34,153 nucleotides of DNA, taken from contig JAOZSM010000006.1 of the NCBI GenBank assembly GCA_029939675.1, forward strand, positions 1-34,153. Direction: 5' to 3'. The translations under genes were made by a program, and so were the position numbers. Shown here piece by piece: positions 24,490-34,153 of this stretch. The stretch's first letter is position 1. Every line of letters begins with the position of its first letter. Below the pieces are notes generated by a model. That model was given only the letters and a program-made list of their open reading frames with translations. It searched no databases and had not been told where the DNA came from. Source of the DNA: Fidelibacterota bacterium. GTDB taxonomy: Bacteria > Fidelibacterota > UBA8477 > JABMPR01.

Positions 24490-25170
24490 TTAAAAACTGG
24501 GTGGGACCCATTTTTTGGCTTCGTATTTGACATTGTAAAAAGGTTCAAGTTCATCCAGATCAGTCACGATGTTTACTCCCCGTAACCCAGCGAGCAGGGC
24601 AACTTGACCTGCATCAGCAGCCTGATGATAAAATCGCTGCTGAACTGAAGCGGCTGCCTGGTCAGTTTGAAGCCACTGTTCAAAACCACGGTCGGCAATT
24701 CCAAAATAGTGATCAACCTGTTTGTTAGCCAAAGTATCCCATGTATCATAGTGAAATTCAGGCGTGGTGATTAACCCACTTTCCCCAAGCTGATAATCGG
24801 CATAGTGCACAAAATTGCGATGGGAGAAGATCACCGCTCGACAGAGTCCCTTAAGACTGTGTCTGAGACCGAAGGCCATGGCATCAGTAGTAAGGATAGG
24901 CATCAAGGGAAGATCAAGCGTAAGCGCAAGTGCTTTCATGGTTGCCAGACCAATCCGTAAACCGTTGAAACTACCAGGTCCGATGGCAATGGCCAAAGCT
25001 TGCACGGGAATTTTCCGGGAGCGACTGTCTGTGAGTGCTTCTTTTAAAAATGGAGAGAGTTTCTCAATATGAATCTGCCCACCAGATGCCTCTCGGTTGA
25101 AAATGATCTCACCCTCATGGGCTGTAGCGACAGAGCACACAACCGAGGAAGTATCACACGCCAGGATCAT
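24490..25170 (-). CDS. tsaB: tRNA threonylcarbamoyladenosine biosynthesis protein TsaB
   Basis: A partner of TsaD in adding threonylcarbamoyl to A37 of ANN-decoding tRNAs. The 226-aa ASKHA-fold protein starts MILACDTSSVVCSVATA, then SGGQIHIEKLSPFLKEALTD and IGPGSFNGLRIGLATMKALA, the family signature (usually GPGSFTGLRIG). The C-terminal half (ADRGFEQWL, EPFYNVKYEAKKW) is weaker, as is usual in TsaB. It overlaps the tsaE stop by four bases (ATGA), so the two are translationally coupled. It is the last gene of the porX-tsaE-tsaB unit. TsaD and TsaC are not in this window. Confidence 0.93.
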   Translation of the reverse strand: MILACDTSSVVCSVATAHEGEIIFNREASGGQIHIEKLSPFLKEALTDSRSRKIPVQALAIAIGPGSFNGLRIGLATMKALALTLDLPLMPILTTDAMAFGLRHSLKGLCRAVIFSHRNFVHYADYQLGESGLITTPEFHYDTWDTLANKQVDHYFGIADRGFEQWLQTDQAAASVQQRFYHQAADAGQVALLAGLRGVNIVTDLDELEPFYNVKYEAKKWVPPSF

Positions 25171-25622
25171 AGTTTAAACTCCAACACCCGAGGTGAATTT
25201 ATTAGAATTTCACGTCCATTCTCATCATCGTCCACATGCCTAAAATGAAAGCCAAAAGCATCCTCTGGAATGGCATCTGCAACGATATCAGCCCATTCTA
25301 TAATGATGATGGCACCTGAATCATAATACTCCCAGATTCCCATGGAAATCAATTCTGCCCCTGATTTGAGGCGGTAGGCATCAATGTGCACAATTTCCTG
25401 ATTTTTATTACCGTGGTACTCATTGATATATGTAAAGGTTGGGCTAAGGGCAAATTCACGAACTTCGTAATAGCTTGTGATGCCTTGCGTAAAAGTTGTT
25501 TTGCCACTGGCCAGGTTGCCCCTCATTGCCAGTACATCACCTGGCTTCAATTGGGCGGCAAGCTGCTGGGCAAGTAACTTGGTTTCCTCTGCGGTATTAG
25601 TTTTAAAGTGATAACGCTGCAT
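25167..25622 (-). CDS. tsaE: tRNA threonylcarbamoyladenosine biosynthesis ATPase TsaE
   Basis: The ATPase that resets the TsaBD complex in t6A synthesis. It has 151 aa with the Walker A motif GNLASGKTTF (35-44), the family stretch SPTFTYINEYHG, HIDAYRLKSGAELISMGIWE, and IIEWADIVADAIPEDAFGFH. The ATG shares its A with the stop of porX (TAATG), so the genes are coupled. Pairing of porX with tsaE is, as I recall, common in Bacteroidota, which supports identifying the upstream gene as a true porX. Confidence 0.95.
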   Translation of the reverse strand: MQRYHFKTNTAEETKLLAQQLAAQLKPGDVLAMRGNLASGKTTFTQGITSYYEVREFALSPTFTYINEYHGNKNQEIVHIDAYRLKSGAELISMGIWEYYDSGAIIIIEWADIVADAIPEDAFGFHFRHVDDDENGREILINSPRVLEFKL

Positions 25623-27190
25623 TATTTAGGTTCCAGGGTTGCCAGAGGAAGGATCATTTCCCACATACTGAGACCACCATGCTGGTAGGTATCGGCAAAC
25701 TTATTCTGAAATTTTCGGAAATTATTGGGATACAGGAAGTAATACATTTTCTGAGCAATGGCCAGCGTATCACTCTGATTTGAAGTCGGTATTCGAAGTC
25801 GTGCAGGATTGTCAAGATACCAGGCATCCTTAGGATTCGGTTTAAGGTTACGTCCCTGTTTAAACCTTAAATTTGTGGAAGCTTCACGGTCTGCCAGAAT
25901 TTGAGTTGGTTGCTGTACACGAACGCTGCCATGATCTGACGTCACGACAACATGGAAACCCTGCCTGGCAGCTGTGGCCAGAACATCTTTTATCCAGGAG
26001 TTGTTAAACCAGGCTCGAACGATTTCGCGATAACTGGCCTCATTGGGCAGGATCTCTCTGAGCAACGGTGAGTCTGTCCGTCGGTGAGCAAGCAGATCAA
26101 CATGATTAACAACCAGGGCGACCAGCTGATGGTTGCCCCAGGACCCGAATTGTTTGGCAAATTGGACACCATCACGATTACTGAGAATCTTTTTATACTT
26201 GGCTTCCGGTCTAAGCGAAAGACCTGAACGTCGGATATTTTCCAGCAGAAAGTCCTCTTCGTGTCGATTGAGGCTATGCTCATCTCTCCCACCCCACCAT
26301 TCAGGATGGAAGCGTTGCATATCATCTGGGAAGAGGCCACTAAAGATGGCATTTCTACTGTATTCAGTTGTGGTAGGAATCAGTGAGAAAAACCCATCCC
26401 TCTGAATCTGAAAATCATTATAAAGCAGGGGCTCCAGGGTTAACCATTGATCCCAACGCATACAATCTATAACGAGGAGCAGAACCTTCTTTTGCTCTTT
26501 CAGAAGGGGTTTGACGGCATGATTAAATACATCAGGAGAAAGCGGAGGTCTTTGATCAGATGACCCTTGGACCCAGGTTTCATAATTTGTCTTAACGAAA
26601 CGCGTAAACAGATCATTGGCTTCATGTTGTTGTTGTAAAAGCATTTCGTCAAAGCCCAGATCGGGATAATCATCCAACTCCAATTCCCAGGCTGAAAGTT
26701 GGTGATGGATATTGATCCACTCCTGTGGACTGGGATTACTCTCAATGCGGGAGGTTAACTCAGCAAAGGCCCGCATATATTTTTCTGAAATGGCATCCTG
26801 TTTGATCTGTCGATTTTCCAGAATCTTCATGATAGCCAGAAGTATTTGGGATGGATTCACCGGTTTAGTAAGATAATCAGAAATACGACTCCCAATGGCT
26901 TCTTCCATCAGGCTCTCTTCTTCATTCTTGGTAATCATAATGATGGGTAAAGCTGGGTGTTCAGCTTTTAGAACAGAGAGGGTTTCCAATCCGTCCTTCC
27001 CGGGCATATTCTCATCAAGCAGGACAATATCAAAACGCTGCTGTCCACAGAGGGCGATGGCATCATCACCGTTCGTAACGGTTGTGACTTGAAAACCCTT
27101 GCCTTCCAAAAAGAGAACATGTGAACGCAGCAGGTCTATTTCATCATCAGCCCAAAGTATTTTTCCACGATTCAGTACGTTTGTATTCAT
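25622..27190 (-). CDS. porX: PorX-type response regulator: CheY-like receiver fused to PglZ domain
   Basis: In Bacteroidota PorX controls the type IX secretion system with the sensor PorY; its PglZ domain is an alkaline-phosphatase-superfamily phosphodiesterase acting on oligonucleotides. This 522-aa protein has a receiver domain (about 10-125) with ILWADDEIDLLRSH, phospho-acceptor D59 in LLDENMPGKDG and K109. A helical linker runs to about 230, then the PglZ domain. Metal/catalytic candidates are intact: D242 (LLVIDCMRWDQW), threonines 273-275 (IPTTTEYSRN), H363-x-D365-x3-H369 (NHVDLLAH), D419-H420 (VTSDHGS) and H504 (YQHGG). All parts of a working two-zinc site seem present. No porY, sigP or secretion gene is in this window. 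The start ATG follows a 143-bp spacer with a palindromic repeat. Confidence 0.9.
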   Translation of the reverse strand: MNTNVLNRGKILWADDEIDLLRSHVLFLEGKGFQVTTVTNGDDAIALCGQQRFDIVLLDENMPGKDGLETLSVLKAEHPALPIIMITKNEEESLMEEAIGSRISDYLTKPVNPSQILLAIMKILENRQIKQDAISEKYMRAFAELTSRIESNPSPQEWINIHHQLSAWELELDDYPDLGFDEMLLQQQHEANDLFTRFVKTNYETWVQGSSDQRPPLSPDVFNHAVKPLLKEQKKVLLLVIDCMRWDQWLTLEPLLYNDFQIQRDGFFSLIPTTTEYSRNAIFSGLFPDDMQRFHPEWWGGRDEHSLNRHEEDFLLENIRRSGLSLRPEAKYKKILSNRDGVQFAKQFGSWGNHQLVALVVNHVDLLAHRRTDSPLLREILPNEASYREIVRAWFNNSWIKDVLATAARQGFHVVVTSDHGSVRVQQPTQILADREASTNLRFKQGRNLKPNPKDAWYLDNPARLRIPTSNQSDTLAIAQKMYYFLYPNNFRKFQNKFADTYQHGGLSMWEMILPLATLEPK

Positions 27191-27266: not shown

Positions 27267-27322
27267 AAACAAGGAACACCGATTTTAGAAGTTCTGAAAT
27301 CGGTGTTCGTTATTCCTTGTTT
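27267..27322. repeat. Interrupted palindrome between cyclase and porX
   Basis: The left arm AAACAAGGAA + CACCGATTT (27267-27285) pairs with AAATCGGTG + TTCCTTGTTT (27297-27322), but the right arm carries seven extra bases (TTCGTTA) between its two blocks. The loop is 11 bases. With pairs of 9 and 10 it would fold strongly in RNA, yet no T-run follows, so I call it a dispersed palindromic repeat that may also slow or stop transcription past the cyclase gene. Confidence 0.6.
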
Positions 27323-27333
27323 GCTATTCAATA

Positions 27334-29751
27334 CTACTTGGAGGTCAGGGTCCAGGATCCATCCCAATTCGTATCGGGTGGATTCTCCATATAGTGTTCA
27401 CATCGATAAATATATACCCGGCTGGGGTTGGTCGGTCTATACGGGAACATCTCTTCAAGTTTATCCGCAGCGATAAATTCGGCTCTGGCTTCCTCCCACT
27501 TTTGTGAACGGTATAATTGCAGTCCCTTGTTATAGCGAGGAAGGATCTTTTCATAGATTGGAGGGAGATTACCTTTTTTAGCAAGGAGCTCATAGGAGTA
27601 GGCAGGAACGCTTTTACCTTTGACTGTGACATAATCCAGTTCACGCCAGTGGAAATCATCTTTGCATTCTATATAGGTTGATTCTAATACCTGGATATAT
27701 ACTCCATATTGTTTGGCTGAGGCTTCAAACCGGGCGGCAATATTTACAACATCACCCATCATGGTATAGCTCATCCGTGTAGAAGAGCCCATATTACCTG
27801 TCACCATCAGGCCGGTTGCAATTCCGATTCGATTCAGCATATGATGGACAATTTCCGGCCACCGATCGCCTTCTTCCTGCCATTTTAAACGTAATTCAGC
27901 CAAACGATCTTGCATTTCTACAGCTGTAAGGCAGGCCATATAGGCATGGTTTTCAACAGGCACCGGGGCACCATAGAAGGCTACAATTGCATCACCAATA
28001 TATTTATCCAGAGTCCCTTGATTCCTAAGCAGGATATCGGTCATGTCATTCAAGTAATCATTCAACAGTTCTACTACTTCTGGTGGAGATAACTTTTCTG
28101 AGAAGCTGGAAAAGCTTTGAATATCAGTAAAGAAGGCTGTATGTATCCCCTGATCACCACCCAATTTTGGTTCCTGTTTATCCTCATACATCTGGTCAAT
28201 GAGGTCAGGAGAGATGTAGGCACCAAAGGTGTCTTTTAGAAAATACTTATCGCGTTGTTCGAGAATGAATTTATAGAGTACGTTGGCTAAGAAAGTTAAT
28301 GCCATAACCAGCAGCGGCGCCATGATGGGAATGAAGGTGGTCTCACCCGGGGCTGGTACAGAAATCTCCTCAGAGTTACCGGATATCCATTTAAAAAACC
28401 ACAAATGATCAGAGGTAAACATACCAACACTAATACTGAGTAAAATAATGGCTTCAACAAGAATCAGGATTCCGCCCCACAATGGATCAAATACGGCAAT
28501 GATCAAATAAGCAATGAGGGCACAAATAACAAGTAGGGCAATCTGAAAAGTAGCTGAGTCAGATGTAAACTCGATGGTGTTTCCCATGACCTTGATAAAG
28601 TTTTCATCCAAGATGGTTTGAATGGCGTTGGCGTGATATTCAAACCCAGGCATAAGGGTGGGGGCGCCCAAGTAATCAAAAAATGCAGTTGATTTGTAAT
28701 CATGCATGACCTCAACTGAGACCCCAATGATGCATATTTTGCCTTTAAAAGGGCTCTCAGGAACCTTATGCTCTGGATCCATCATACTCATCATCATGTT
28801 TAGTGTGCCTTCAGGATTAAATGTGTCCATCCAATTCGTGTCTTCCTCATAGGAAGGTAGATCATAATCCTCTGTATCAATTATCCAGACGAGGGGGAAG
28901 CGCTTGAAGGTCTGCCAAGGCTCAGATTTCCCGATACGAGCATGGGAAGCAGGACCATATATATTGGTCAAAAAACCGGGATGGTCGGATCCGTAGGTTG
29001 GGATTTTAATTGGGCCATAAGTAAACTTCCCACTATCATAATCATAGCTTAGTCCAGGATCATCTGGAATATCCAAATAATATTTTACTGCCTTCATCCC
29101 CAGTGAGAGACGCCAAATATCAGGTTCATGCGCCATGGCACCAAAAACTGGATATCGTCGAGTAAAGTGGTCCTTGTCCTCTTCGATATCGACCAGACCA
29201 TGATCCGGGTTTACCCTCATAATAAAATCATTGGGAATAATCAAAATCTGTGGCGGAATACTCGACGGTTCAGTTTTGATAGTGGAGGCCATGACAATTT
29301 CTGTCCCCTTGCTACGCGCATATTCGATTGCTTCGGTAAGAACAAGATCACCATCATAATAGTTTTCAGGTAGCTCACCATTAAATACAGATAGGACTCT
29401 GGCTGTATGTGCATCACGGGCATCAAACTGGATATCAAATACGATAACCTTGGCACCGGCATCGGCCAGATTCTCGACAACTCTATTCCATATTTCACCA
29501 CGGGGATAAGGCCAACCAATATCACCCAGCAGCCGATAAGTCTCATCATCCACATCGATGAGGACTACATCCAAACTATCGTTAGGATTTTCCTGGTGGG
29601 AAGCCCAGGATGAAAGGGGACCCCGAAGTTGAAAACTAAAATCAAGAATTTTAAAATTTGCAAGATCAAGCAAACCAAACATCTGGATGACTAAGACCAC
29701 AATAATGGCCATAGTTGTAAACAAAACTCCGAAGCCATATTTTTTTAACAT
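27334..29751 (-). CDS. CHASE2-domain class III adenylate cyclase
   Basis: A membrane-bound sensor cyclase, 805 aa, predicted to turn an extracytoplasmic signal into cAMP. An N-terminal anchor helix (about 10-28) is followed by a large periplasmic CHASE2 domain to about 390 (DVVLIDVDDETYRLLGDIGW, KVIVFDIQFDARD, GKICIIGVSVEV). About three membrane helices follow (400-495), then the catalytic domain (535-715). Metal-binding aspartates are D543 and D587; transition-state residues are N670 and R674. Purine-selecting K583 (LDKYIGD) with T663 points to ATP, not GTP. The last about 75 residues look TPR-like (GLQLYRSQKWEEARAEFIAA). I chose the ATG at 29751 over a TTG at 29763. It lies downstream of the FecR and barrel genes in the same direction. 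Confidence 0.92.
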   Translation of the reverse strand: MLKKYGFGVLFTTMAIIVVLVIQMFGLLDLANFKILDFSFQLRGPLSSWASHQENPNDSLDVVLIDVDDETYRLLGDIGWPYPRGEIWNRVVENLADAGAKVIVFDIQFDARDAHTARVLSVFNGELPENYYDGDLVLTEAIEYARSKGTEIVMASTIKTEPSSIPPQILIIPNDFIMRVNPDHGLVDIEEDKDHFTRRYPVFGAMAHEPDIWRLSLGMKAVKYYLDIPDDPGLSYDYDSGKFTYGPIKIPTYGSDHPGFLTNIYGPASHARIGKSEPWQTFKRFPLVWIIDTEDYDLPSYEEDTNWMDTFNPEGTLNMMMSMMDPEHKVPESPFKGKICIIGVSVEVMHDYKSTAFFDYLGAPTLMPGFEYHANAIQTILDENFIKVMGNTIEFTSDSATFQIALLVICALIAYLIIAVFDPLWGGILILVEAIILLSISVGMFTSDHLWFFKWISGNSEEISVPAPGETTFIPIMAPLLVMALTFLANVLYKFILEQRDKYFLKDTFGAYISPDLIDQMYEDKQEPKLGGDQGIHTAFFTDIQSFSSFSEKLSPPEVVELLNDYLNDMTDILLRNQGTLDKYIGDAIVAFYGAPVPVENHAYMACLTAVEMQDRLAELRLKWQEEGDRWPEIVHHMLNRIGIATGLMVTGNMGSSTRMSYTMMGDVVNIAARFEASAKQYGVYIQVLESTYIECKDDFHWRELDYVTVKGKSVPAYSYELLAKKGNLPPIYEKILPRYNKGLQLYRSQKWEEARAEFIAADKLEEMFPYRPTNPSRVYIYRCEHYMENPPDTNWDGSWTLTSK

Positions 29752-29798
29752 GTCAAACCCCAAATTCTATCGTAGAAAAGCGAACCAATTTAGTTAAC

Positions 29799-29823
29799 TG
29801 CAGAGAACGCAATGGGCGCAGAG
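29799..29823 (+). repeat. Short copy of the CGCAGAG-type repeat core
   Basis: TGCAGAGAACGCAATGGGCG with CAGAG after it resembles the core at 3600-3623 (CGCAGAGAACGCAAAGGCG). It lies in the 170-bp spacer between the barrel gene and the cyclase. The rest of this spacer shows only a weak hairpin TGTGC-ATCA-GCACA (29882-29895). Confidence 0.5.
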
Positions 29824-29921
29824 ACTCAAATAAGCTAGATAAGGAATATGTTGCCCAAATTGTGTGTTTTCTCAGTGGAACTGTGCATCAGCACAAAACT
29901 GCGCACATAAAAGTAAGGTAC

Positions 29922-32690
29922 TTAAAAGGTCATCTCAAATCGAGCTGAAGCTGTGTTGTCAATGTAGTCGGTATAGTCGCTGACATATTGACGTTGTTCA
30001 AAACTGCCAATCATCCGAGATTTGATCACAGAGTTACCAACATTAAATGATTTAAAGGAATACTGCGCATTAAACTGCATGTTAGCCTGGGTCTTCAACG
30101 ATGTGATCAGCACATCTTCCACAAATTTCTCGGATTCAAATGTCATATACTGGAAACTACTCCGAAGAATTAGATGACTGTTAAATAGTCGATAGCCTGC
30201 TCCAAATCGATACGTATTGAAGGTATTTGTTTGAAAATTGGGGTTTTCGTTCTCATAGAGTTGATTTCGATTATTGCGGACTGAAATAGTCGTAGTCAAC
30301 GGGATACCCCATTCCGATCGAAGATTTAACCCATAAAGGTTTGATGCCCGCAAGAGCCCTTCTCGATCAACTACTGTATTGTTCATATCTGCACGCATAA
30401 AATTGAGAGAAAAGGTATTTGCTATTTGTCCAGTCTGGAGCAGATAGGTGATATTCACATTCGAACTTAGTGATTCATTCAGCTCACGATTATCAATAAT
30501 AAGCGTGGTATCTCCCTGCACTGAGTGCGTCGTATCATCAATATTATTGTCCCGCGTTAAGAACTTCATATTGGTGGAAATAGTAGGTAATCCATGACCC
30601 GGATTTAGAGTAATTCCTCCGCTGAAGGCATTTTGCGCTAAACGCGGATCTGCGACGAGATCCTGAGATGCAGTATTATTTTTATAGGATTGCCAGCCCA
30701 GGTTTAGATACAACATATTATTGAGCATACGTATTTTGTCGGTAATCTTCCAGCCGCTCCAACCTTTTCCATCTAAACGGAGAACCGGACTACCCAGGGC
30801 TTTGTACCCGGGTCCAACATGATGATAATCCACGTGAATAAAATTACCATAGTAATTCAATTTAGCGGCAAAATGCAAAGCTAGAGTTGGCAGACCGGCA
30901 AGAATATTTCCATTACTGAGATTATCTACATCAACAGGGAGAACCAAATTCTCATTAATAATGAAATAATCTGATAAATTTCCGGGATCGAACATACCAT
31001 CAGTCATTAGGAAATCTAATTTGCCGGCGAGGGCATCATCAATTGAGGAAAGCGGAATATCCAGAGTACCGGACCCCAGGGTATCATCATAAGTTGTATC
31101 AGAAAGTAGTGCAAATGTATCTAACTGTGCTCGGGTCAATGGACCATCTGAGATATTTCGGTTATGGAGTGAAAAGGCTGCACTGCTCTCTAAAACAAAG
31201 CGGTGATTATCAAATGCAATCTTCAAATCAGAACCAACAACGATGTTGTCTTCAGGATTACTTCCATTTAAAAAATAGTTAATAGATCGGGTGCTATCAT
31301 CCAGGGTAAATTCATCTGCTCCAAAAGGAACCGTAACAATCCCGGTTTCTCCAATCAACTGTTCAGAAAACACTTCTCCATTCCACCAAACGGGACGAGT
31401 AGAGACGCTGTTGATACTGTCCCTAGTATGCACATAGAACAGCCCTAATTGGAAATGCTTTCCAGAGCCAAAGCTGGGTCTAACAGCAAACAGACCACGC
31501 TCATAACTATACCCGGAACGTTTCCATTCTGCCCCCGTACTATCGAAAGTGGCTTTACCTGTTACAGCACGAGCTGTTTGGCCGGAGACTACGTGTAGAT
31601 TCACCCATTTAAAGCGGAGATCAATATTATGTCCCCTAACTCGTTTACCCCAAAGGGCCAAACGATTCAGCATGGGTGTTTCGTCACCATAAGCATATTT
31701 TAACCAGGAGGTTCTTACCTTCACACCATAGCGATTCTGGGGCTGGAGGGTTGAATCCTCTTTGGTAGTCAAATTGCCAAATACCTTAATCTTGGCCCAG
31801 TCAAAATTTATATTGGTGTGAAAATCAGCACGTGATACCGCTTGTGATAGGGGTGTATACACTGGCACAGAAACAGTTTCACCATCTATCAAAGAATCAA
31901 CTTCTGTACCTCTGATATTGATCAAGTCCTGTCGATGACTGAGATTGAGATTCCCATGTACATCAACCTCGAAAATCTGTTGAGCTTGACTACGTATGTT
32001 AAAGCTCCATGATGTTGAGGACAGTCGCACCCCATATATATTGGAGACTTCAATAAACATATTGTGTTTGCCGGCGCTAAGACCATCAGGTTTATAAGTG
32101 ATTAAATCAGTTGTCACCAGGGAATAGGCAGTAACATCCACATTATCGAAGAACACCCGAACTGAATTGATATCAACATTGGACAGGTTGAAAAGTGAAA
32201 CGGCAATAATCATGGGTTCACCGAAAGGGATAATTGCACCGGGATCGGGAGTGAGAATAATCAACTCGCCAAAATTACTGGTTTCATCCACCTGTTTATC
32301 TGCCTGACTTGGTTCAGCAACTGGGACATATTGGGGATCCGAAAGGGGATCATCATTGGTGGGAAAAGCCACCAATCCGCCATTTTCTAAACTAAGCACG
32401 ATGACATATTCAATTCCAGGGGCACCAATGGTCTCACCGGGAAGGTTTCCAGAAAGTTTCACCTCTCCAATATCCATCATCTCTTCTAGGAAGCCAACCT
32501 GACCAGCCAAACGATAGAGGATCTTTGCGTTAAGAATCTGGTCCAGATCACCAGTATATATTGCTTCAATATTTAAGCTGTTTCCCTCGATAGCTTCTTG
32601 TGGTGGAATATGAATGATCTCGCCCTGTTGCTGAAAGGCAACAGCAGTTAGTCCCATCCCCACGAGTAGTATCGTCAGTAGCTGCTTCAT
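29922..32690 (-). CDS. Predicted outer-membrane beta-barrel protein with N-terminal Ig-like domains, unknown family
   Basis: I do not recognise the exact family. The 922-aa protein has a signal peptide (KQLLTILLVGMGLTAVAF). Residues about 25-250 look like two beta-sandwich (Ig-like) domains (LDQILNAKILYRLAGQVGFL, IAVSLFNLSNVDINSVRVFF, GLSAGKHNMFIEVSNIYGVR). From about 260 to the end come many alternating-polarity strands (KVRTSWLKYAYGDETP, FRFGAG-like AYRFGAGYRL near 850, NMQFNAQYSFKSFNVGN), ending ARFEMTF with a terminal phenylalanine, as in many outer-membrane barrels. It has no plug or TonB box. It starts 24 bases after the FecR gene and precedes the CHASE2 cyclase, so it may be the outer-membrane part of that signalling cluster. 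It is not SprA-like in length or motif. Confidence 0.7.
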   Translation of the reverse strand: MKQLLTILLVGMGLTAVAFQQQGEIIHIPPQEAIEGNSLNIEAIYTGDLDQILNAKILYRLAGQVGFLEEMMDIGEVKLSGNLPGETIGAPGIEYVIVLSLENGGLVAFPTNDDPLSDPQYVPVAEPSQADKQVDETSNFGELIILTPDPGAIIPFGEPMIIAVSLFNLSNVDINSVRVFFDNVDVTAYSLVTTDLITYKPDGLSAGKHNMFIEVSNIYGVRLSSTSWSFNIRSQAQQIFEVDVHGNLNLSHRQDLINIRGTEVDSLIDGETVSVPVYTPLSQAVSRADFHTNINFDWAKIKVFGNLTTKEDSTLQPQNRYGVKVRTSWLKYAYGDETPMLNRLALWGKRVRGHNIDLRFKWVNLHVVSGQTARAVTGKATFDSTGAEWKRSGYSYERGLFAVRPSFGSGKHFQLGLFYVHTRDSINSVSTRPVWWNGEVFSEQLIGETGIVTVPFGADEFTLDDSTRSINYFLNGSNPEDNIVVGSDLKIAFDNHRFVLESSAAFSLHNRNISDGPLTRAQLDTFALLSDTTYDDTLGSGTLDIPLSSIDDALAGKLDFLMTDGMFDPGNLSDYFIINENLVLPVDVDNLSNGNILAGLPTLALHFAAKLNYYGNFIHVDYHHVGPGYKALGSPVLRLDGKGWSGWKITDKIRMLNNMLYLNLGWQSYKNNTASQDLVADPRLAQNAFSGGITLNPGHGLPTISTNMKFLTRDNNIDDTTHSVQGDTTLIIDNRELNESLSSNVNITYLLQTGQIANTFSLNFMRADMNNTVVDREGLLRASNLYGLNLRSEWGIPLTTTISVRNNRNQLYENENPNFQTNTFNTYRFGAGYRLFNSHLILRSSFQYMTFESEKFVEDVLITSLKTQANMQFNAQYSFKSFNVGNSVIKSRMIGSFEQRQYVSDYTDYIDNTASARFEMTF

Positions 32691-32714
32691 GTCTGGTATC
32701 CGAGTTACCCGGTA

Positions 32715-33422
32715 TTATTCGGCGTACTCTATTATAATGTATTTTTCTGTATTGGTTTCTTCATTGACCATGCGAATGCGTAATTCGTGGATAGTACTGC
32801 CTGAATCTTCTTCTTCGCCTTCAGTTTCGGGATCATCAGGAACATCTTCCTCCTCAGTTTCCTCAACCTCGACAGATCCATCCGGATTGGATGTGGCAGT
32901 TTCGTCTGCACCTACATTTTGAACAGTACCACTGATCAGGTTCTCAACTTCAACAATTCCATCGATAACGATAAAGATATCACCATTTTCATCACTGGTG
33001 ACCCACCACTCGGTCCCTTTTACAGAAGCCACAGATGTTGGGGTAGCGATTCGAAATTCACCTTTTTGTTTCGTAACTGAGGCTTTAACTGTTCCGTAAT
33101 CCAAAGAGATCGTTTTTGATATCTTGCCACGTTCCACCGCTGCCAGGATTGCCATTTCCGAATTACTTTTGACTTTAATCTGACTTTTATCATCAAGAAA
33201 AAAGATGGCAATAAAACCATCATCACCGGTTTTTATCCAGTCATTATTCTTAAGCTGAGTGCCCATAATTGCATTAGGGCTGTAATCATCGGCATTAAAT
33301 TTTTTATGGAAGGTTGTTCCTTTTGATTTAGCAATTACTCCAATGGGTTCCTGTGCAAAAGAAGTGGCTGACACAAGGCCAATGAGAATAGTGATCAACG
33401 CTATTTTTGAATAATATTTCAT
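32715..33422 (-). CDS. Secreted FecR-domain protein with acidic tail
   Basis: A periplasmic or surface protein of 235 aa built round a FecR domain. The signal peptide (KYYSKIALITILIGLVSATS, then FAQ-E) is followed by the FecR core: GVIAKSKGTTFHKKF, LKNNDWIKTGDDGFIAIFFL, DDKSQIKVKSNSEMAILAAV and FRIATPTSVASVKGTEWWVT. After it comes a strongly acidic linker (VEVEETEEEDVPDDPETEGE) and a short beta-like C-terminus. There is no membrane helix and no neighbouring FecI-type sigma or TonB receptor, so it is unlikely to be an iron-citrate regulator. FecR domains next to CHASE2 cyclases are, as I recall, a repeated genomic theme. I chose the ATG at 33422: AAAGGG lies seven bases upstream and the signal peptide begins there. 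Confidence 0.85.
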   Translation of the reverse strand: MKYYSKIALITILIGLVSATSFAQEPIGVIAKSKGTTFHKKFNADDYSPNAIMGTQLKNNDWIKTGDDGFIAIFFLDDKSQIKVKSNSEMAILAAVERGKISKTISLDYGTVKASVTKQKGEFRIATPTSVASVKGTEWWVTSDENGDIFIVIDGIVEVENLISGTVQNVGADETATSNPDGSVEVEETEEEDVPDDPETEGEEEDSGSTIHELRIRMVNEETNTEKYIIIEYAE

Positions 33423-33432
33423 GGTAAACCCT

Positions 33433-34153
33433 TTATTGTGTCGTAATGCTTTCGATCTCGAAGGCCCCACTCATAAGTTGAACCAGAAGAGCCCCAAAGT
33501 CGGTTGAATTCAAATTCTCACCATCCAGGGTGATTTCAGCACATTCGCCATAGCCTTCCAGGGGTCCATTAGGTCCAAATAGAATGTTATATTGGCTATC
33601 CCCCAGCACATTTCGCAACTGTTGTTGACAGGGAGTGATAGTTTGACCTGCCTCTGAAATAGTGAAACCATAGATCTCACTAAATGACTCCTCTGCTGCA
33701 CCCGTAGTTTGACAGACTTTCTTAATCTGCCAAGCATAAGCCTTTCCAACTTCAAGTGAACGACCAGTTACAGTTGAATAGTCAAGTTGGTAGGTAGCAC
33801 CAAGTGATACAAAGCTACCATCATCAGGGTAAGGGAAGACAGCTTCGCTCTGCAAAGCATCTTCTGGTGAGCTATGCATAATGGGATTGTACTCACAGAT
33901 TCGAATATAATAATCATCGCACCCAGTAGAATTCCATTCAAAGACGGGATAGGTATCGCTAATAAACTCATATCCCAGAGACGGGAAGATTAAATCGATA
34001 TTGGCTGGTTGTTCAATAGTGATAACTTTGTGAGGATCAAAACCGACATAATCAACTGAATACCCCGGGGCTGTAATATTCAGATCAAAGACATACTGAC
34101 CGTCAGGCATTTTTAGGTTAGTGGTAACCTGATCACGGAGTGATTCGAATTCT
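33433..34153 (-). CDS. Secreted or surface Ig-like protein, 5' end cut by window edge
   Basis: The frame is open to the window edge with no stop, so the start is missing; 239 residues are visible. It has an Ig/fibronectin-like beta region (MPDGQYVFDLNITAPGYSVD, YPVFEWNSTGCDDYYIRICE, GKAYAWQIKKVCQTTG), with paired cysteines hinting at an exported protein, then a C-terminal region (ITPCQQQLRNVLGDSQYNIL, GLNSTDFGALLVQL-like). The stop is ten bases before the FecR start and overlaps its ribosome binding site, so the two are one transcript. An ATG at 34110 is internal and probably not the true start, since the reading frame and beta-like sequence continue upstream. Family not recognised. Confidence 0.75.
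   Translation of the reverse strand, partial: EFESLRDQVTTNLKMPDGQYVFDLNITAPGYSVDYVGFDPHKVITIEQPANIDLIFPSLGYEFISDTYPVFEWNSTGCDDYYIRICEYNPIMHSSPEDALQSEAVFPYPDDGSFVSLGATYQLDYSTVTGRSLEVGKAYAWQIKKVCQTTGAAEESFSEIYGFTISEAGQTITPCQQQLRNVLGDSQYNILFGPNGPLEGYGECAEITLDGENLNSTDFGALLVQLMSGAFEIESITTQ

Follow-up and report, generated by a model that had tools for sequence, protein, structure and literature searches.

An Ig-like protein, FecR, outer-membrane barrel and CHASE2 cyclase gene block in Fidelibacterota: a candidate outer-membrane-to-cAMP signalling pathway

Four genes at the end of a contig from a marine bacterium of the phylum Fidelibacterota belong to a block that is found throughout the phylum, and they probably encode a transenvelope sensing pathway (we put the probability at roughly two in three), which would lead from the outer membrane through a FecR protein to a CHASE2 adenylate cyclase, and thus to cAMP. 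Our verdict is that the block is a phylum-wide, four-gene form of outer-membrane-to-cAMP signalling, which would work like the NsrA-CyaK pair of the root-nodule bacterium Sinorhizobium meliloti but stands outside the NsrA family. That the four genes act as one sensing pathway had been proposed in a preliminary description of the sequence; we still infer it by analogy, with NsrA-CyaK as an experimental precedent that supports it strongly, if indirectly. The experimental evidence that we found for signalling of this kind comes from a rhizobium, and the present reading would extend it to an entire phylum whose members, from the ocean and the subsurface, are for the most part uncultured.

The four genes and their products

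The window, by which we mean the whole stretch of 34,153 nucleotides analysed, is contig G000:C283 of a 3.2-Mb draft genome, and the block lies at its end. Named relatives assign it to the phylum Fidelibacterota (also named Candidatus Neomarinimicrobiota, Marinimicrobia or SAR406). The minus strand of the window carries, in this order, genes for an Ig-like protein, a FecR protein, a 922-aa barrel protein, a CHASE2 cyclase, PorX, TsaE and TsaB. The preliminary description had listed the first four as open reading frames in one direction, and all four were found on the minus strand at the coordinates given there. Its account of the gene content stood for these four parts, but the start of the FecR gene and the truncated Ig-like gene had to be corrected, and PorX, TsaE and TsaB had been overlooked. 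TsaE (25167 to 25622, minus strand; PF02367) and the TsaB-like protein of the TsaD family (24490 to 25170, minus strand; PF00814) are housekeeping neighbours outside the block.

The cyclase gene (27334 to 29763) encodes 809 aa with Pfam matches to CHASE2 (E = 1.7e-32) and Guanylate_cyc (E = 1.9e-21). The layout of the protein is that of a CHASE2 adenylate cyclase: an N-terminal transmembrane segment, the CHASE2 domain (residues 19-413), further transmembrane segments and a class III cyclase domain (residues 542-718), the hydrophobic segments at 13-31, 406-424 and 478-496 flanking CHASE2. Every class III catalytic residue is present, namely D547 and D591 for the metal, K587 and T667 for the definition of the substrate, and N674 and R678 for the transition state; these roles follow the class III numbering established for Rv1625c and CyaB1. 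The K/T pair is by its sequence of the adenylate type, in agreement with the intact ATP-type active site announced beforehand, and an alignment of 33 relatives shows it retained in nearly all of them. When the family was compared with CyaK, the match extended across the CHASE2 and catalytic domains (E = 1e-60). A search for Pycsar systems with PADLOC gave PycC profile matches to the catalytic domain only, and no effector was recognised in the adjoining genes. The source genome holds a second CHASE2 adenylate cyclase (L001, G000:C252), which has neither FecR nor barrel beside it; an apparent VapBC-type toxin-antitoxin pair, judged from translations, lies upstream of it.

The periplasmic FecR-domain protein (32715 to 33422, minus strand; PF04773, E = 3.4e-11) more likely starts at the ATG at 33422, which gives it 235 aa, the same as in its relatives. 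Hydropathy predicts one N-terminal signal peptide, and neither a further transmembrane segment nor an anti-sigma N-terminus. Homology links the protein with NsrA, whose FecR domain it matches (E = 2e-7).

A FecR Pfam domain together with an outer-membrane barrel might be taken to indicate an iron cell-surface signalling unit of the FecI-FecR-FecA type. However, no FecI or other ECF sigma factor was found among the neighbouring genes, either here or in relatives, and no TonB receptor or transporter was found among the neighbours of the block. The FecR protein lacks the cytoplasmic anti-sigma part and the transmembrane anchor, and the barrel has no plug or STN domain according to Pfam. The likeness to FecIRA lies in the periplasmic FecR-family domain and the outer-membrane barrel, whereas the output of the Fidelibacterota block is a cyclase. 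The absence of FecI, of a plug and of an anti-sigma domain rules out a classical FecIRA unit, and we give next to no credence to any unit of this type. An iron-uptake unit, which the preliminary description had also dismissed, was rejected on the same evidence.

The gene for the Ig-like exported protein (33433 to 34152, minus strand) has lost its 5' end at the end of the contig. The preliminary description had called for a look at the full gene beyond the window, and relatives supplied it: their version is about 400 aa long with a signal peptide. An AlphaFold2 (AF2) model of the protein of one relative (L085; pLDDT 84.9) consists of Ig/FN3-type folds, a general resemblance only. The Ig-like protein has no Pfam match, and searches of PDB sequences with this protein and with FecR gave no useful match.

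The 922-aa protein (29922 to 32690, minus strand) is a candidate outer-membrane beta-barrel receptor. It has no Pfam or NCBIfam match. A signal peptide is followed by two predicted Ig-like domains (residues 25-235 approximately) and by the predicted barrel (approximately 243-922), with no other hydrophobic segment. By sequence, the Ig-like region weakly resembles an Ig domain found in a peptidylarginine deiminase (E = 4e-4). The protein ends in a Phe that is retained in most relatives; a C-terminal Phe is what is expected of BAM substrates. The AF2 model, built with 47 relatives (mean pLDDT 84.1, pTM 0.63), shows N-terminal beta domains and then about 25 long alternating strands over residues 243-921, as counted from DSSP. 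The best Foldseek matches were to outer-membrane barrels (the Mtr complex/MtrB, ushers, TonB-dependent receptors and transporters, and LptD), with low TM-scores, so that the class of outer-membrane barrels is supported but no specific family within it. The preliminary description had proposed a barrel and had staked this on structure prediction, which bore it out.

Conservation of the block in Fidelibacterota

Among 60 relatives, 44 encode the barrel and 42 encode the Ig-like protein. We collected 110 barrel loci from two collections, some genomes being counted in both. The genes for the Ig-like protein and FecR lay directly upstream of the barrel in 105 of these loci, and the cyclase lay directly downstream in 94, often with a 4-bp overlap. 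The preliminary description would have been refuted if barrel and cyclase were not neighbours in related genomes, but they are neighbours phylum-wide. This four-gene arrangement far exceeds chance. The order of the genes is retained over 15 families, with barrel identity down to 20% (20 to 30%); part of this conservation is general synteny, because regional gene order is conserved well past the four genes. The gene order of the block is ancient. Swapping of the cyclase, hinted at by a lower identity correlation, was not upheld, since at the family level the tree of the barrel broadly agrees with that of the cyclase. Genomes that carry the barrel are larger (median 2.9 Mb, compared to 2.1 Mb for the others, at a completeness of at least 85% and with relatedness ignored).

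Outside the phylum, one FecR-based scan found the block in a Calditrichota MAG (L142) and in an unassigned MAG (L160); as the scan used FecR and not the barrel, whose alignment holds no conserved stretch for a profile search, barrel relatives in other phyla that lack this FecR motif would have been missed. A Marinimicrobia-type block was also seen on a contig labelled Gracilimonas (L145). Given its high profile scores and its similarity to L057, this is probably Marinimicrobia contamination of the MAG.

Paralogous sets of Ig-like protein, FecR and barrel without an adjacent cyclase also exist, and two types were distinguished. In type B (L118, L119, L120, L130, L144, L150, L153 and L158) the barrels are shorter, mostly about 750 to 780 aa, and some of the sets are in genomes that also hold the full four-gene block. 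Type C (L075, L076, L081 and L082) combines an FN3/Ig repeat protein of about 1550 to 1590 aa, a FecR of about 390 aa and a barrel of about 860 to 885 aa. Because of these paralogs, the trio may act independently of a cyclase. It could even be that Ig-like protein, FecR and barrel make up an outer-membrane module with a structural role or a part in secretion or uptake, and that the cyclase beside it, though conserved there, responds to a signal of its own. The presence of ushers, LptD, MtrB and TonB-dependent transporters among the Foldseek matches of the barrel would suit such a module. The position of the cyclase immediately 3' of the barrel in the great majority of loci, frequently overlapping it, argues against this, as does the recurrence of the FecR-cyclase pairing in other phyla with different outer-membrane parts. 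We consider a separate module unlikely.

Upstream, an rRNA operon on the same strand precedes the Ig-like gene in 64 of 81 loci from across the phylum (among them L043, L045, L049, L050 and L055), and the block begins about 80 to 450 bp after it. The rRNA end before the block is the 5S, with the 23S detected in two cases. A terminator-like hairpin follows the 5S in 45 of 50 distinct spacers, which makes co-transcription of the block from the rRNA operon unlikely. The adjoining rRNA operon is the reason why many contigs, and probably the window too, which stops just before the position of this operon in relatives, end at this place.

PorX and type IX secretion

The gene downstream of the cyclase is a true porX (25622 to 27190, minus strand), encoding a receiver and a PglZ phosphodiesterase domain (NCBIfam NF052313, 652 bits; cut-off 300 bits). 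It comes right after the cyclase in 66 of the 110 loci. Of the 16 genomes that lack the barrel, 11 nevertheless have PorX. G026, G030, G036 and G047 hold both PorX and the intact block, but at different places, and at 22 loci the complete set of four genes is followed by some gene other than PorX. We therefore regard the block as a four-gene unit and PorX as a conserved neighbour, probably outside it; PorX as a fifth member was rejected as the main reading on the same grounds. That the block remains whole away from PorX also supports the reading of the four genes as one pathway. Across the 110 loci, adjacent genes of the block are mostly separated by -4 to +46 bp, whereas cyclase and PorX are mostly 40 to 350 bp apart. 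In the window this gap contains a hairpin (27274 to 27308) that may be a bidirectional terminator. It was the one plausible hairpin there and is not general in relatives, so that a conserved terminator was discarded.

The source genome encodes the SprA translocon and about 100 sorting tails of the type IX secretion system (T9SS). Together with PorX, these indicate heavy type IX secretion in Marinimicrobia; some reviews call the T9SS Bacteroidetes-specific. It is conceivable that the block is wired to this system, sensing the state of the surface or of secretion, and that cAMP and the PglZ phosphodiesterase PorX then tune secretion. The frequent adjacency of PorX, the sorting tails and the presence of SprA in 58 of 60 relatives would fit such wiring, and PorX proteins do show phosphodiesterase activity, although the substrates given are bis-pNPP and pGpG, not cAMP (PMC10951265). 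Against it stand the independent occurrence of PorX and block, and the wider gap with its hairpin. No tie of the four-gene block to PorX or the T9SS was found across genomes, SprA being there regardless. The resemblance to T9SS control by PorX/PorY-SigP lies in the adjoining PorX, and the difference in that this PorX is phylogenetically independent of the block. On balance, we find wiring to the T9SS quite unlikely.

The source genome encodes six cNMP-binding proteins, among which are two regulators of the CRP type and two histidine kinases. At one locus (L179, G000:C25), two histidine kinases whose N-termini carry cNMP-binding domains lie in tandem and are candidate cAMP effectors. Judged by their domains, which do not prove cAMP binding, both the CRP-type regulators and the kinases are candidates for this role. 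The narrower proposal that the cAMP output of the block feeds type IX secretion, through PorX or through cNMP-gated histidine kinases acting on PorX, seems quite unlikely to us; if true, a single pathway would run from the sensing of the surface by way of cAMP to the secretion of proteins.

The proposed pathway and comparison with known systems

In the transenvelope pathway that we favour, the outer-membrane barrel with its Ig domains and the exported Ig-like protein, an accessory partner, would respond to a ligand outside the cell or to the condition of the surface. In the periplasm, FecR would pass the signal to CHASE2, the domain that the cyclase of the inner membrane exposes there, and the cyclase would alter its cAMP output, to be read by CRP-type or other cNMP-binding proteins. 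We infer the physical contacts, the direction of the signal, the cAMP output and the effector. To our knowledge, the input that activates CHASE2 sensor domains is largely unknown, and the pathway makes the contact between FecR and CHASE2 directly testable.

The layout is less unusual than was first thought, since clusters of FecR and CHASE2 cyclase are described in other phyla. Campylobacterota likewise have a CHASE2 cyclase and a FecR-domain outer-membrane protein in one cluster, but this cluster also includes a TPR protein and a cAMP phosphodiesterase (PMC9239204); Fidelibacterota have the Ig-like protein and the Ig-barrel instead, with PorX, not shown to be a cAMP phosphodiesterase, nearby. 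The Burkholderia FecR-LysM/CHASE2 histidine kinase operon (BiofilmReg, PMC5192318) likewise pairs a periplasmic FecR with a CHASE2 sensor, but has a two-component output and no barrel. Separate genes for a TPR-barrel, FecR and CHASE2 cyclase are present in Paracoccus and Shinella, and Ruegeria has FecR and the cyclase.

The closest comparison is with S. meliloti, where the cAMP response to uL2 protein, be it of plant or microbial origin, depends on both NsrA and CyaK (PMC7529298, PMC13001267). Immediately 5' of cyaK lies the gene for a 1190-aa protein that combines a FecR domain (residues 66-160), TPRs and a C-terminal barrel region. As in our block, where the barrel is predicted, the gene for a CHASE2 class III adenylate cyclase is thus immediately preceded by coding sequence for a FecR domain and an outer-membrane barrel, and both the cyclase and the FecR domain are homologous between the two systems. 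NsrA, however, fuses FecR, TPRs and barrel, whereas Fidelibacterota have one gene for FecR and another for the barrel, with Ig-like domains on the barrel in place of TPRs, and an additional Ig-like protein stands at the start of the block. The two barrels have no detectable homology (hhalign E = 0.13). Because of the separate genes, the missing TPRs and the barrel without detectable relation to that of NsrA, we do not file the block in the NsrA family. The core shared across phyla is FecR plus CHASE2, and the outer-membrane receptor is replaceable; the recurrence of this core with interchangeable barrels suggests that CHASE2 generally has FecR as its partner in the periplasm.
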